A stretch of 64,000 bases of DNA from NCBI RefSeq assembly GCF_900083545.1, contig NZ_LT559262.1, positions 2,079,673 through 2,143,672 on the forward strand. The letters are read 5' to 3'. The translations under genes and the position numbers were made by a program. The notes beneath the pieces were generated by a model, which had not been told where the DNA came from, did no database searches, and was given only the letters and a program-made list of their open reading frames with translations. The stretch's first letter is position 1, and every line of letters starts with the position of its first letter. This DNA is from Alistipes provencensis (lineage in GTDB: Bacteria > Bacteroidota > Bacteroidia > Bacteroidales > Rikenellaceae). Positions 44,353 through 50,684 of this stretch are shown here, one piece after another.

Positions 44353-44415
44353 CGTTCCCGATATCGAAAATTTCCCGAAATTTCGTATCTTGTCGGATGG
44401 ATAGAGAAACCGAGT

Positions 44416-44508
44416 ATGCGTAAATTGATCCTCTTTTTGCTGTTTCTGAGCTGGAATTTCCCCCCCCCCGGCGACTGCCGCCGCGCCTCCGGCTCAAATG
44501 GTATTTAA
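44416..44508 (+). pseudogene. Out-of-frame signal-peptide segment of the HTCS gene
   Basis: ATG at 44416 opens a typical signal peptide, MRKLILFLLFLSWNF, but after the C run the frame reads PPPGDCRRASGSNGI and stops at 44506-44508. Removing a single C would join it in frame to PPPATAAAPPAQ and then MVFKHLGISEGF of the sensor, giving a complete signal peptide with an Ala-rich cleavage region. As written, the sensor would lack its export signal. Confidence 0.8.
44460..44469 (+). repeat. C10 homopolymer tract in the HTCS leader
   Basis: Ten consecutive C between TTT and GG, inside the region coding for the signal peptide. The length is out of frame for the sensor by one base. Such tracts mutate by slipped-strand mispairing and are also prone to sequencing error. 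Confidence 0.9.
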
Positions 44509-47500
44509 ACACTTGGGCATCAGTGAGGGTTTCAACCAAACCAACGTAACCACCCTTTATCAGGACGAGAACGGCACGATCTGGGCCGCGGGCGTCGGCG
44601 GCGTGGTCCGCTACCGCGGATTGCAGACCGAGGAGCCGCTGATGTCCGAAGGTGCCGCGGAGCTGTTCCGCCCGATGAACGTCAAGGGCATCTACGGCGA
44701 GCAGAACGGCCTGATCTATTTCTACCAGCTTCGCAATATCGTCGAATACGACCTGCGGCGGGAGACCTTCCGGCCGCTCTTCACCGATTCTTTGCTCGAC
44801 AGCCGTTCGATTTCGGCCGCGACGGTCCGCGGGGGCCGCGTCTATGCCGCCGCCGGGGACCGCATCGTGGTCGCCTCGCCTGACGGGAAATGCAGCCAGT
44901 TGCTGCTGCCCCCGATGAGCGAGGTCTCGGCGCTGGCCTGCACGGCCGGGGGCGTGCTCTATGTCGGGACGCTCCATTCGGGTTTATACCGCCTCGATGA
45001 ACGCGGCACGGCGGAGTGCATCCTCCCGACGGCCTCGAAGATCAGCAGTCTGTTCGAGGACAGCCGCGGCGATTTGTGGGTCTGCACCCGCAGCGAGGGG
45101 CTTTACCGCCTCGACGCCGGGGGCGGCGTGCGGCGTTTCGTCCACGATCCGCGCCATCCCGAGGGGCTGGCGGACAACTATGTGCGCTGTATCTGCGAGG
45201 ACAGCGAGGGCCGGATGTGGATCGGCATGATGTTCGGACTGGACTGCTACGACCCCGCGTCGGACCGTTTCTATCACTTCGGACGTTCGGATAATCCGCT
45301 TTACGGCATGCGCAACCTGACGGTGGAGTGCATCATGCGCGACCGCCGGGGTGCGATCTGGTTCGGGTCGTTCTATACGGGAATCTCCTATTTCCATCCC
45401 CACGAGGCGCTGTTCCGCGTGGTCCCGATCGAGGGCGAGGACACGACGTGGACCATCGTCGCCGACGTGACGCTCGACCGCCGCGGCGACCTCTGGGCCG
45501 GAACCTCGGACAAGGGACTCTACTTCTACGACCGTGCGCGCCGCCGGGGACGCTTCTTCAACATGGGCAACAGCGGCATCCCGAGCAACAACGTCAAGAG
45601 CATCCGCTACGACGCCGAACGCGACCAGTTGTGGCTGGGAATGTTCATGGGCGGCGTCTGCGTCTACGACATTCCTTCGGGGCGTTTCGAACGCCTGAAG
45701 ATCACCGATCAGGGCGGCGGGCTGGAAAATATCGAGATCGTCCACAGCCTTTCGCGCGAGGGCGATGCGATCTACGCCGGGACCTATGCCGGGGTTTACC
45801 GCATCGACATGAGGACCCGCCGTGCGGAGCGCATCCTGAACCAGCAGCGGGTGTTCAACGTGCTGAGCGGCGGCGACGGGTGGCTCTATGTGGTGACGGG
45901 GCAGGTGAATTTTAGGGTCTACCGCCGCGACGAGGCGGGTCTTTACCAGCTCTATTTCAACCGCGTCGTGCAGCAGGACATGGTGACCTCGCTGTTCCGC
46001 GACGACCGCGGACGGGCATGGGTCGGGACGACCCGCGGCGGGGCGCTGCTGTTCGACCGCGACCGGAAGGAGTTCGTGACCTATGACCGGGCGGCCTGCG
46101 GCATTGCGAGCGACTATGTGAGCTCCATTGCGCAGACCCCCTCGGGGCTGATGGTCTTCGGGACCAATGCCGGGATGTCGCTGGTCGATGCGGACAGTCT
46201 CCGCAGCGAGAATTTCAACATCCGCAACGGATTTCCGCTGCTGTCGCTCGAGAACGGCTGCCTGTGGCGCGGCGAGGGGGACGAGATGCTGGCGGGCGGC
46301 GTCGACGGCATCGTGTCGTTCACGGGGCAGGACCTCGTCCGTGCCGGGCGTGTGCCGCAGTTATTCTTCGCGTCGCTCTCGGTGAACGAGCATCCCGTGC
46401 GGGCCGGCGACCGGACCGGCATTCTGGACGAGGCGATGGCCTACACGAAGTCGATTTCGCTGGGACATAAATACAACATCGTGGACATCGCTTTCGGGAC
46501 CGACAACGCCGCGGATTTCAACCTCGGCGACTATCAGTACAAGCTCATCGGCTACGACGAGGCGTGGCGTCCGCTGCCGGGCAATAACATCCGCTACATG
46601 AACCTCCCGCCGGGGCGTTACCAACTGGCCGTGCAGAGCCGTCCGACCCGCCTGCTCGACGGCGGCGGGCGCATCGAACTCGACATCCGGGTCTACCCGC
46701 CGTTCTACGCCAGCATCTTCGCCTACATCCTCTATGTGCTGCTGATTATGCTCATCACGGCGTGGGTGGTCCGCTACTACTACACGAAAAAGCAGTTGGA
46801 GCAGTCGCTGGCCATGGAGCGTATGGCCCGGGAGCAGCAGGAGCGCATCACGCAGTGGAAACTGGTCTTCTTCACCAACATTTCGCACGAGTTCCGCACG
46901 CCGCTGACGCTGATTCAGGGACAATTGGACCTGCTGGCGCGGCAGGAGCTGCCGGGGGTGCTGAAAGGTTACCTGATGAGCGTCCGCCGCAACGCCCTGC
47001 GGCTGCGCGATCTGGTCAACGAGCTGATCGACTTCCGCAAGCAGGAGCAGGGATACATGTCGCTCAAGGTGAGCCGGCAGGATCTGGTGGCCTATCTGGC
47101 CGAGGTGTGCGGCACCTTCGAGGAGTACAGCGGCATCCGCGGGGTGGAGCTGGACTATGTGCCCGGGATGGCGCGGCTGGAGCTGCCGTTCGACCCCGTG
47201 CAGTTGCAGAAAGTCTTCTACAACCTGATAAGCAACGCATTCAAGCATACCGACCGGGGCGGCCGGATCACGGTGACGCTCGCGGCGGACGACGCGCAGG
47301 CCGTGGTGAAGGTGGCCGATACGGGCCACGGCATCGAGGAGAAGTTCTTCGCGGCGATCTTCGAACGCTTCTACCACAACGAGGCCGACACGCAGGACGC
47401 CGGGGTCGGCATCGGGCTGGCCCTCTCGAAAGGCATCGTCGAACTGCACGGCGGAGGGATCGGTGTCGAGAGCGAGGTGGGCGTGGGCTCGACCTTCACG

Positions 47501-48412
47501 GTGACGCTCCTGCTGAATCCCGATTTCAGCGGCAATTCCAACGTCGAGGTGGTCGAAAAGCAGGAATATCCCCGTCCGGCACCCGTGGCCGACTATCTGC
47601 CCGCTCCCGAACGGATTCCGGGGTCGGAGGAGCTGCCGCGCCTGCTGGTCGTCGAGGACGACGACGAGCTGCGGAGCATGTTCGGCACCATCTTCTCGCA
47701 GTATTACCGCGTGACGCTGGCCCCCGACGGCGAGGAGGGACTGCGGCTGGCGCGCGAGGAGCAGCCCGACCTGATCGTGAGCGACGTGCTGATGCCCGGG
47801 ATGTCGGGAACGGAGCTGTGCGCGGCGGTCAAGCGCGATTTCGGGACCTGCCACATTCCCGTGATCCTGCTCACGGCGCTCTCGTCGCCCGAGCAGCGTA
47901 TCACGGGGCTCGAAAGCGGCGCCGACGACTATGTCTCGAAGCCCTTCGACATGGACGTGCTGATGGCCAAGTGCAACGGCATGGTGCGCAACCGCCGGCT
48001 GTTGCAGCGCAAATTCCTCGAAGGAAATTCCGGACCCGCGTCGGAGACGCTTTCGGGCAATCCGATGGACGAGGCTTTCGTGCGCAAGACGCTGGCGCTG
48101 ATCGGCGACCATCTCGACAGCGAGTCGCTGGGTGTCGGGATGCTGAGCCGCGAACTGGCCCTGAGCCGCACGGCGCTGTTCGCCAAGATCAAGGGCGTCT
48201 TCGGGCAGACTCCCACCGAACTGATCCAAGGCATCCGCCTGCGCGAAGCCGCACGGATGCTGGCCGAATGTCCCGAGCTGAAGATCGCCGAGATCGCCGA
48301 CCGGGTGGGCATCAATTCACTGCAATATTTCGGCAAACTCTTCAAGGCGCGCTTCGGCTGCACGCCGTCGGAATACCGCGCGGCACCCGGAGAGAGCCGG
48401 GAGGGCGCCTGA
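44498..48412 (+). CDS. Hybrid two-component system sensor-regulator (HTCS) of the PUL
   Basis: HTCS proteins fuse a complete two-component system and activate PULs on binding an oligosaccharide. From the internal ATG, 1304 residues are open: beta-propeller repeats up to about 650 (YQDENGTIWAAG, LFEDSRGDLWVCT, CEDSEGRMWIGM), a Y_Y_Y domain (about 658-731), one membrane helix (about 738-762), HisKA with His797 in FFTNISHEFRTPL, an HATPase with VADTGHGIEEK and GVGIGLALSKGIVELHGG, a receiver with Asp1096 in LIVSDVLMPGMSG, and a C-terminal AraC helix-turn-helix. All core residues are intact. The N-terminal signal peptide is out of frame because of the C10 tract. Position directly after the PUL supports it as the cognate regulator. 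Confidence 0.93.
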   Translation: MVFKHLGISEGFNQTNVTTLYQDENGTIWAAGVGGVVRYRGLQTEEPLMSEGAAELFRPMNVKGIYGEQNGLIYFYQLRNIVEYDLRRETFRPLFTDSLLDSRSISAATVRGGRVYAAAGDRIVVASPDGKCSQLLLPPMSEVSALACTAGGVLYVGTLHSGLYRLDERGTAECILPTASKISSLFEDSRGDLWVCTRSEGLYRLDAGGGVRRFVHDPRHPEGLADNYVRCICEDSEGRMWIGMMFGLDCYDPASDRFYHFGRSDNPLYGMRNLTVECIMRDRRGAIWFGSFYTGISYFHPHEALFRVVPIEGEDTTWTIVADVTLDRRGDLWAGTSDKGLYFYDRARRRGRFFNMGNSGIPSNNVKSIRYDAERDQLWLGMFMGGVCVYDIPSGRFERLKITDQGGGLENIEIVHSLSREGDAIYAGTYAGVYRIDMRTRRAERILNQQRVFNVLSGGDGWLYVVTGQVNFRVYRRDEAGLYQLYFNRVVQQDMVTSLFRDDRGRAWVGTTRGGALLFDRDRKEFVTYDRAACGIASDYVSSIAQTPSGLMVFGTNAGMSLVDADSLRSENFNIRNGFPLLSLENGCLWRGEGDEMLAGGVDGIVSFTGQDLVRAGRVPQLFFASLSVNEHPVRAGDRTGILDEAMAYTKSISLGHKYNIVDIAFGTDNAADFNLGDYQYKLIGYDEAWRPLPGNNIRYMNLPPGRYQLAVQSRPTRLLDGGGRIELDIRVYPPFYASIFAYILYVLLIMLITAWVVRYYYTKKQLEQSLAMERMAREQQERITQWKLVFFTNISHEFRTPLTLIQGQLDLLARQELPGVLKGYLMSVRRNALRLRDLVNELIDFRKQEQGYMSLKVSRQDLVAYLAEVCGTFEEYSGIRGVELDYVPGMARLELPFDPVQLQKVFYNLISNAFKHTDRGGRITVTLAADDAQAVVKVADTGHGIEEKFFAAIFERFYHNEADTQDAGVGIGLALSKGIVELHGGGIGVESEVGVGSTFTVTLLLNPDFSGNSNVEVVEKQEYPRPAPVADYLPAPERIPGSEELPRLLVVEDDDELRSMFGTIFSQYYRVTLAPDGEEGLRLAREEQPDLIVSDVLMPGMSGTELCAAVKRDFGTCHIPVILLTALSSPEQRITGLESGADDYVSKPFDMDVLMAKCNGMVRNRRLLQRKFLEGNSGPASETLSGNPMDEAFVRKTLALIGDHLDSESLGVGMLSRELALSRTALFAKIKGVFGQTPTELIQGIRLREAARMLAECPELKIAEIADRVGINSLQYFGKLFKARFGCTPSEYRAAPGESREGA

Positions 48413-48434
48413 CGAACCTCCGGCCGCGATGAAA

Positions 48435-48463
48435 AAAAGCCCCGCTTTACAAGCGGGGCTTTT
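48435..48463. terminator. Bidirectional terminator between HTCS and rclA-like gene
   Basis: Perfect 13-bp stem AAAAGCCCCGCTT/AAGCGGGGCTTTT (48435-48447 with 48451-48463), loop TAC. A-run and T-run flank the GC core, so it works for both convergent genes. Confidence 0.93.
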
Positions 48464-48468
48464 GCGTG

Positions 48469-49858
48469 TCAGGCGAAGAGGTCGTTGAGCGTCTCGCTCA
48501 TGCTCGGGTGGGTGTAGACCGAGTTGCTCAGCTCGCGGGCCGTGATGCCGTGCTTCATGGCCAGTGCGACGGTGTTGATGACCTCGCTCGACTCGGGCCC
48601 GAAGAGCGTACAGCCCAGAATTAGGTCCGTTTCGGCATCGATCACCGCTTTGAAAATCCCTTCCGCGGGTCCCAGAATCCGGGCGCGGGGGATTGTGGAA
48701 ACCGCAATCTTCGTGACCCGGATGTCGAGCCCCGCTTTCCGGGCCTCGGCCTCGTGCATCCCGACGTGCGACAGGGGCGGGGCGATGAAGACCGAGTAGG
48801 GGACCGGCCCCCGGTTGGCCGTGGTGCGGCCACCGTCGCCGAAGAGTTCGTCGCGGATGATGCGGTAGTCGTCGAGCGAGATGTAGGTGAACTGGAGTCC
48901 GCCCGTGACGTCGCCGATGGCGTAGATGTTCGGCGCGGAGGTGTGCAGGTGTTCGTCTACCCGGATCGCGCCGCGTTCGTCGGTTTCGACTCCGGCCGCC
49001 GCGAGGTTCAGCCCTGCGGTGGCGGGCCGCCGGCCCGTGGCCAGCAGGACGCCGCCGGCCCGTGGCCAGCAGGACGGCGTCGGCTTCGACGGCGGTGTCG
49101 GCGCTCTCCTGCGTGACGGCGGCAATCACGCCTTCGGCCGTGTCGCGGAACGAGTTCACCCGGACGTTCAGCCGGAATTCGACGCCCTGCTTTTCGAGCA
49201 CTTCGCGGACGCCGGCGGCGATGTCGCGGTCCTCGCGGGGGATCAGCTCCGGGAATCCTTCGAGCACCGTGACCCGGGAACCGAACGAGGCGTACATCGA
49301 GGCGAATTCCAGTCCGATATAGCCGCCGCCTACGATCACCAGATGCTGCGGCAGGCGTTCCAGCTCCATGATCGAGGTGCTGGTGTAGACTCGCCGGCTT
49401 TCGGCGATGCCCGGGATGGGCGGAAGCGCCGTTTCGGCCCCGGTGTTGATGACGATGTGTTTTCCGCCGATCTCCAGCGTGCCGTCGGCGGTCTTCACCT
49501 CGACGGTTTCCGGGGAGAGGAAACGCCCCTCGCCCGTGTAGACGTCGATGAGGGGGTTGTCGGCCAGTTTGTGGTAGTTCTTGTCGCGGAGCAGGCCGAC
49601 CAGCGCGGTTTTCGAGGCGACGGCCTCGCGGTAGTAGGCCCGCTGCTGGTCTGCGGTCAGCGGATGCCCGGCAGCCGCGAGGGCGGCGCTGTGGATCAGG
49701 GCCTTGGTCGGGATGCAGCCGATGTTGATGCAGGTTCCCCCGTACATTTTGTCCGAGCGTTCGACCATGGCGACGCTCCATTGGTGTTGGGCCAGTTCGG
49801 CGGCGAGGGTCTTGCCTCCTTTGCCGAAGCCGATGATGACGGCATCATACTTTTTCAT
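48469..49858 (-). pseudogene. rclA: RclA-like pyridine nucleotide-disulfide oxidoreductase, frameshifted by a 25-bp duplication
   Basis: The two reading frames, 49858 down to about 49051 and then to 48469, join into one 454-residue protein if one copy of a 25-bp tandem repeat is removed. It opens MKKYDAVIIGFGKGGKTLAAELA, has the redox-active pair GGTCINIGCIPTK, the second Rossmann motif VIVGGGYIGLEFASMYASFGS, and GDVTGGLQFTYISLDDYRI, ending THPSMSETLNDLFA. These blocks match E. coli RclA, a flavoprotein copper(II) reductase that protects from hypochlorous acid, more closely than lipoamide dehydrogenase or MerA. As sequenced, translation runs into an unrelated frame after VEADAVLLATGRR, losing the dimerisation domain. 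It may be a pseudogene, a reversible switch, or an assembly error. Confidence 0.88.
49026..49075 (-). repeat. Perfect 25-bp tandem duplication inside rclA
   Basis: Two exact adjacent copies, 49026-49050 and 49051-49075. On the coding strand each unit begins GTCCTGCTGGCC and ends GGGCCGGCGGC. Because 25 is not a multiple of three, the duplication shifts the frame; the single-copy form reads AVLLATGRRPATAGLNLAAAG, which is the expected family sequence. Confidence 0.95.
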
Positions 49859-50131: not shown

Positions 50132-50284
50132 AGTGCCTTACGCCTGCGGGAGCAGCGGTTAGGATCAGAAACGCTTTGGCCTGTGGTTGCCCTTAAAACA
50201 GGCGTCTTACACCTGCGGGAGCAGCGGTTGGGATCAGAAGCGCTCTTAATCTATGGTTGCCCCTAAAACAGGCGTCTTACGCCT
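50132..50284 (-). repeat. Tandem ~70-bp repeats overlapping the 3' end of the SRPBCC gene
   Basis: Two full units (periods 69 and 70 bp) plus a third partial unit. The blocks CTTACGCCTG, GGGAGCAGCGGTT, GGATCAGAA and GGTTGCCC...TAAAACAGGCG recur. On the minus strand each unit holds CAGGCGT-AAG-ACGCCTG-TTTT or a decayed form of it, a hairpin with the TAA stop in its loop. In the promoter-proximal unit this is the real stop and terminator of the SRPBCC gene, so the gene end appears to have been duplicated outward. Confidence 0.8.
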
Positions 50285-50684
50285 GCTGCATGGCTTTGGC
50301 GATGCCTTCGGCGATCTGGTCGATGGCGCCCTGCAGCTTGCCGCCGACCATCATCTTCATCATCATGTTCAGCTCGATGTGCAGGACCAGCCGCATGCGT
50401 GTGTCGGTCTCCGAGACCTTGTGCAGTTGAATCCAGAAGGCGAAATCCATCGGAATTCCTCCGTCGTCGCCTACGATCTTGACGTGTTTGGGCGCCTCGC
50501 GCTCCTCCATGCGGAGGCGGACGGTGAAGCCCTTGGCCTTGAACGAGCAGGTGTCCTCCGTGGCCTGCCACTCCTCGACCCGGTCGGCGACGGCCGGCGT
50601 GAGGTTGTCGAAGCGGCTGATGACCGCATAAATCTGTTCCGCGGGACGCAGAATCTGGTGTTGTTTCGATGTGTACTCTTGCAT
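50277..50684 (-). CDS. SRPBCC/START-like domain protein
   Basis: 135 residues forming a single SRPBCC (polyketide cyclase/START-like) ligand-binding fold: SKQHQILRPAEQIYAVISRFDNLT at the N-terminus, beta strands through the middle (CSFKAKGFTVRLRMEERE), and a long C-terminal helix (KMMVGGKLQGAIDQIAEGIAKAMQQA) that lines the cavity. The ligand is unknown. No signal peptide, so cytosolic. It is 30 bp after tsaE on the same strand and probably in the porX operon. Its stop codon is embedded in a terminator hairpin that belongs to a tandem repeat. Confidence 0.85.
   Translation of the reverse strand: MQEYTSKQHQILRPAEQIYAVISRFDNLTPAVADRVEEWQATEDTCSFKAKGFTVRLRMEEREAPKHVKIVGDDGGIPMDFAFWIQLHKVSETDTRMRLVLHIELNMMMKMMVGGKLQGAIDQIAEGIAKAMQQA

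Follow-up and report, generated by a model that had tools for sequence, protein, structure and literature searches.

A perfect 25-bp tandem duplication breaks the reading frame of an rclA-like gene in the assembled genome of Alistipes provencensis. We consider it probable (roughly 55%) that this duplication is an overlap between contig ends that was left uncollapsed where a draft assembly crosses a GC-rich gap. The same contig contains a demonstrable error of this kind; the step from there to the rclA site being a join is one that we infer. The gene lies in a 64,000-nucleotide stretch that was analysed as a whole (the window), to which the coordinates below refer unless a contig or locus is named.

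An rclA-like gene split by a 25-bp duplication

The features of the locus are as follows.
48469-49858, minus strand: the whole rclA-like gene, encoding a flavoprotein whose two halves match RclA.
49051..49858, minus strand: N-terminal part, 269 true-frame residues, with the FAD- and NAD(P)-binding region, K13, K16, C43 and C48.
48469..49056, minus strand: C-terminal part in the shifted frame, with the rest of the FAD domain, the dimerisation domain and the HPSMSE active-site motif.
48317..49858, minus strand: the frame as assembled, 513 aa, comprising the 269 true residues and then a tail that is read out of frame and extends into the convergent gene.
49051..49075, minus strand: first-read 25-bp copy, in frame with the N-terminal half (from sequence and translation).
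49026..49050, minus strand: second 25-bp copy, out of frame for the N-terminal half and in the register of the C-terminal half.
44498..48412, plus strand: hybrid two-component regulator (HTCS) that converges tail to tail on the rclA-like gene, an arrangement shared by the closest relative.

Run on the window, Tandem Repeats Finder called a 25-bp repeat (49026-49084, period 25), and an exact search returned two perfect copies spanning 49026-49076. No exact tandem repeat with a period of at least 12 arose when the window was shuffled 20 times. The identical adjacent units of the preliminary description are thus confirmed by two methods. With 25 extra bp, the rclA-like frame is lost after about 269 codons. 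In a profile search the upstream half (49051-49858) corresponds to positions 1-253 of NF040477 and the downstream half to positions 243-438 of 441, and matches to the E. coli RclA structures (6kgy/6kod) show the same two-half split. Profile and structure therefore agree with the earlier view of a mid-gene frameshift between halves that match RclA from end to end.

RclA is the top-scoring family for this gene, above the HOSCN reductase MerA. The halves score 309 and 274 bits separately against NF040477, short of the curated cut-off of 740 for a full-length member, and the intact orthologues of two relatives (see below) reach 581 and 591 bits. Comparison of the translations with the residues given in PMC11107202, from which the numbering and the two lysines typical of HOSCN reductases were taken, shows that the CxxxxC pair, K13/K16 and the His-Glu pair are all encoded across the two halves. 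C43 and C48 lie in a GGTCINIGC motif, and the His-Glu motif is HPSMSE. As assembled, the gene product would be null. A redundant second RclA in the same genome was considered and rejected, the only other family match being a distant relative (172 bits).

Single-copy relatives and purifying selection

RclA is an accessory gene in this lineage: of 180 genomes in the genus, 3 (this one included) have an RclA-like gene at this level, as do 7 of 268 in the family. Alistipes sp. Zagget8 (G015; 89% DNA identity), which has the same convergent neighbour, and Alistipes montrealensis (G011; 83%) both carry one copy of the 25-bp unit and an uninterrupted frame of 454 aa; the gene measures 1365 bp in these relatives versus 1390 bp in the window. 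Comparison with close relatives, which had been proposed as a check, thus bears out the expectation that the single-copy form is an open frame.

Outside the repeat, dN/dS relative to Alistipes sp. Zagget8 is about 0.19 in the N-terminal part and 0.10 in the C-terminal part. Changes assigned to the window branch comprise 14 synonymous and 9 nonsynonymous in the former, and 19 synonymous and 1 nonsynonymous in the latter. Decay elsewhere in the gene was sought as the sign of a fixed pseudogene; the gene is otherwise intact, with no further stops or frameshifts outside the repeat and with its codon-position bias preserved. Judged from these substitutions, the gene outside the repeat is under purifying selection, suggesting that it still works or lost its function only very recently.

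Sister duplications and a faulty join in the same assembly

The rclA duplication has counterparts elsewhere in the genome, of which we sampled 1.43 Mb (38%), so that genome-wide counts are extrapolations. Two more exact two-copy duplications of at least 20 bp were found in this sample, and the join described below lies on the same contig.
L175:19722-19802 (G000:C5:2419722-2419802): 40-bp perfect duplication, shifting the C-terminus of a ROK-family gene.
L226, C5:463899-463982: 42-bp in-frame duplication.
L281:6301 (G000:C5:2756301): lone N at a bad join.

The 40-bp duplication joins the ROK-family frame to that of the sedoheptulose 7-phosphate isomerase gene downstream, and Alistipes sp. Zagget8 has a single copy at this site and an intact ROK-family gene. 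The 42-bp site is single-copy in both relatives, as judged by match length. At all three junctions (25, 40 and 42 bp) extra homology is limited to 0-1 bp, making them blunt, and the local GC content of the three sites falls at the 100th, 97.8th and 99.6th percentiles (101-bp windows). The remaining tandem arrays of the sample are imperfect, with at most 96% matches versus 94-100% at the three sites. In a small comparison, no exact two-copy duplication of at least 20 bp was found in 419 kb of A. montrealensis or 317 kb of Alistipes sp. Zagget8. Genome G152 was tried as a tandem-repeat control and set aside as not comparable, since its matches are mostly multi-copy arrays.

Next to the lone N lie a perfect 181-bp duplication and a 126-bp piece identical to sequence at C5:981304, 1.77 Mb away. 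In Alistipes sp. Zagget8, the sequences on either side of the join overlap within a single uninterrupted stretch, and a different contig holds the match to the 126-bp piece. This site is demonstrably an uncollapsed overlap with a chimeric insert; thus, the process behind this contig left exact duplications in place. The draft state of the assembly is also evident from the unplaced contigs C3 and C4 (L271, L272): they hold lpxC, nusA, infB and a 5S rRNA end, part of the core genome that the main contig lacks.

Taken together, the three exact duplications with one copy at each site in relatives, their blunt junctions and extreme GC content, the imperfection of the other arrays, the lack of such duplications in the stretches of the two relatives, the lone-N misjoin, the draft state of the assembly and the purifying selection on the rest of the gene all argue for an uncollapsed overlap at the rclA site. 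Replication slippage usually leaves longer direct repeats at its junctions, and short-read coverage tends to fall away at extreme local GC. Two contig ends would have overlapped by 25 bp at a very GC-rich, hairpin-prone spot, and the overlap would have been written out twice instead of being merged, giving a false frameshift in a functional gene. The living strain would then carry the one-copy gene of its relatives and, as far as its sequence predicts, make a normal RclA-type reductase. Against this reading, the rclA site carries no N, and the assembly is 99.9% complete with the window in a 3.79 Mb contig. Moreover, three duplications here versus none in two relatives is a small count.

A possible random mutation at a GC-rich site

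The main rival is a recent random loss of function, in which a GC-rich hairpin provoked slippage or template switching during replication, so that the 25 bp were duplicated and rclA was inactivated, with no regulatory purpose. We regard this explanation as a serious one, though somewhat doubtful. Tandem duplication is a real class of mutation, and an independent example, a perfect 11-bp duplication (GGATGTACGCT twice, at about nt 1225), is present in the rclA-like gene of a Bacteroides metagenome bin (L061), although this record is a short-read bin. It shifts the C-terminal frame, and its site is unrelated to that of the 25-bp duplication. The exactness of the copies, the single copy in relatives and the lack of other decay favour a fresh mutation, as do the accessory status of RclA and the presence of a few other broken RclA genes. 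The preliminary description had read a very recent event from the identity of the copies. Recency is indeed one route to identical copies, but an uncollapsed assembly overlap is another.

The site itself offers a biological route, namely an imperfect 9-bp repeat (7/9) at the edges of the 25-bp unit and a short GC-rich hairpin-forming sequence at its end. DNA folding gave z-scores of -1.5 and -0.9 for the two-copy form and positive values in a relative, so a stable hairpin beyond chance is weakly indicated and was not retained. Exact junction homology amounts to only 1 bp, which speaks against slippage, and the two GC-extreme sister duplications together with the proven misjoin make the artefact at least as likely. 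If the mutation is real, losing rclA may have no effect on fitness or confer a slight advantage, whether in culture or in the gut, and low-rate collapse back to one copy can occur, as at any short tandem duplication. A scan of viral contigs did not find the two-copy junction.

Test for recurrence across RclA loci

The preliminary description had proposed a reversible off state. As a contingency switch, the gene would flip between an on state with one copy and an off state with two, often enough to be useful, so that cells of one population would differ in oxidant defence. In favour of this idea, the frame is open with a single copy, the rest of the gene is conserved, and passages of PMC4243769 and PMC4022640 cite Waite (2001, 2003) for reversible duplications inside pneumococcal capsule genes. 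Were the locus a switch, the repeat should recur at this site or tandem duplications should be enriched in the gene, and neither was seen. Among 80 RclA loci, 73 are open by a simple frame-length test, and the repeat at the 25-bp site is absent from all other loci examined, including both Alistipes relatives. Only one of the 80 (the 11-bp case above) has a tandem duplication, elsewhere in the gene. The gene is interrupted by a run of N in L088 and, with no exact tandem repeat, in L053, L069, L075, L084 and L103; these last five interruptions may be sequencing errors. Frame-shifting tandem duplications number 1 in 109 kb inside rclA versus 5 in 851 kb of flanking DNA, and no enrichment in rclA was found across the 80 loci. 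Furthermore, phase-variable products are typically surface structures, whereas the RclA-type enzyme is cytoplasmic.

Thus, with at least three exact, blunt, GC-extreme duplications and a misjoin in the assembly and no recurrence at the site, the off-state proposal is not upheld, and we consider a contingency switch very improbable. Slimmer still is the chance of its broader form, in which the duplication is real and the strain is a mixture of one-copy and two-copy cells, turning the oxidant-defence enzyme on and off by duplicating and collapsing the 25-bp unit, a GC-rich sequence that would be one of several switching sites across the genome. A fixed, decaying pseudogene, to which the interrupted frame would otherwise point, is the least probable explanation and is disfavoured by the absence of decay outside the duplication (further stops, frameshifts or loss of codon-position bias) and by the 19:1 ratio in the C-terminal part.

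Neighbouring features

A C10 tract (44460-44469, within 44415-44520) lies behind a signal-peptide-like start (ATG 44415) and throws that start out of register with the HTCS gene, which begins at 44498. The distance of about 4.6 kb between this tract and the 25-bp duplication had been given correctly. The closest relative also has C10 here (L115:7686), likewise out of frame. The tract is a better candidate for phase variation than rclA; it belongs to a separate convergent gene, and nothing ties it to the 25-bp duplication. Runs of at least 9 G or 9 C are frequent, numbering 22 in 1.15 Mb of this genome (for example, L126:17857), 21 in 0.4 Mb of G152 and 8 in 0.4 Mb of A. montrealensis. The DNA that separates the rclA-like gene from the next gene on the minus strand contains a 69-bp imperfect repeat (2.2 copies, 87%; 50137-50286), and Alistipes sp. 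Zagget8 has a 64-bp repeat (2.3 copies, 90%) at L115:14915-15059.

Implications

If the duplication is an artefact, annotators would label a working gene for defence against host oxidants as a pseudogene, and a reference-type assembly is flagged as holding uncollapsed overlaps at GC-rich spots. A real but random duplication would simply be a loss-of-function allele of the ordinary kind. The duplication would gain importance only if switching were observed.

Comparison with known systems

E. coli RclA (6kgy/6kod; NF040477) is a HOSCN/Cu(II) reductase of reactive chlorine defence. The Alistipes gene is predicted to be of the same type, both halves having RclA as their top family and structure match and encoding GGTCINIGC, K13, K16 and HPSMSE. 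It differs in being split by a frameshift as assembled and in that even the intact Alistipes orthologues score below the family cut-off. In the immediate neighbourhood, no rclB, rclC or rclR was noticed; these genes are restricted to proteobacteria (PMC7527725).

In the pneumococcal capsule genes cap3A, cap8E and tts (Waite 2001, 2003, cited in PMC4243769), as in the present case, an exact tandem duplication in the coding frame shifts that frame, and loss of one copy would reopen it. For a 9-bp insertion, a passage of PMC4022640 quotes reversion at a rate not exceeding about 1e-5. Switching in the capsule genes was observed in culture, whereas here there is one assembled genome with signs of assembly error, and the site recurrence or in-gene enrichment that would mark a cap3A-type system was not found for the rclA-like gene.

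The third comparison is with uncollapsed contig overlaps. Unlike the N-marked artefact, the rclA site is without N, its join being deduced. The likeness lies in an exact, blunt, two-copy duplication at a GC extreme, absent from relatives and matched elsewhere in the assembly by sister cases and by faulty joins, with the N-marked 181-bp example in the same contig.
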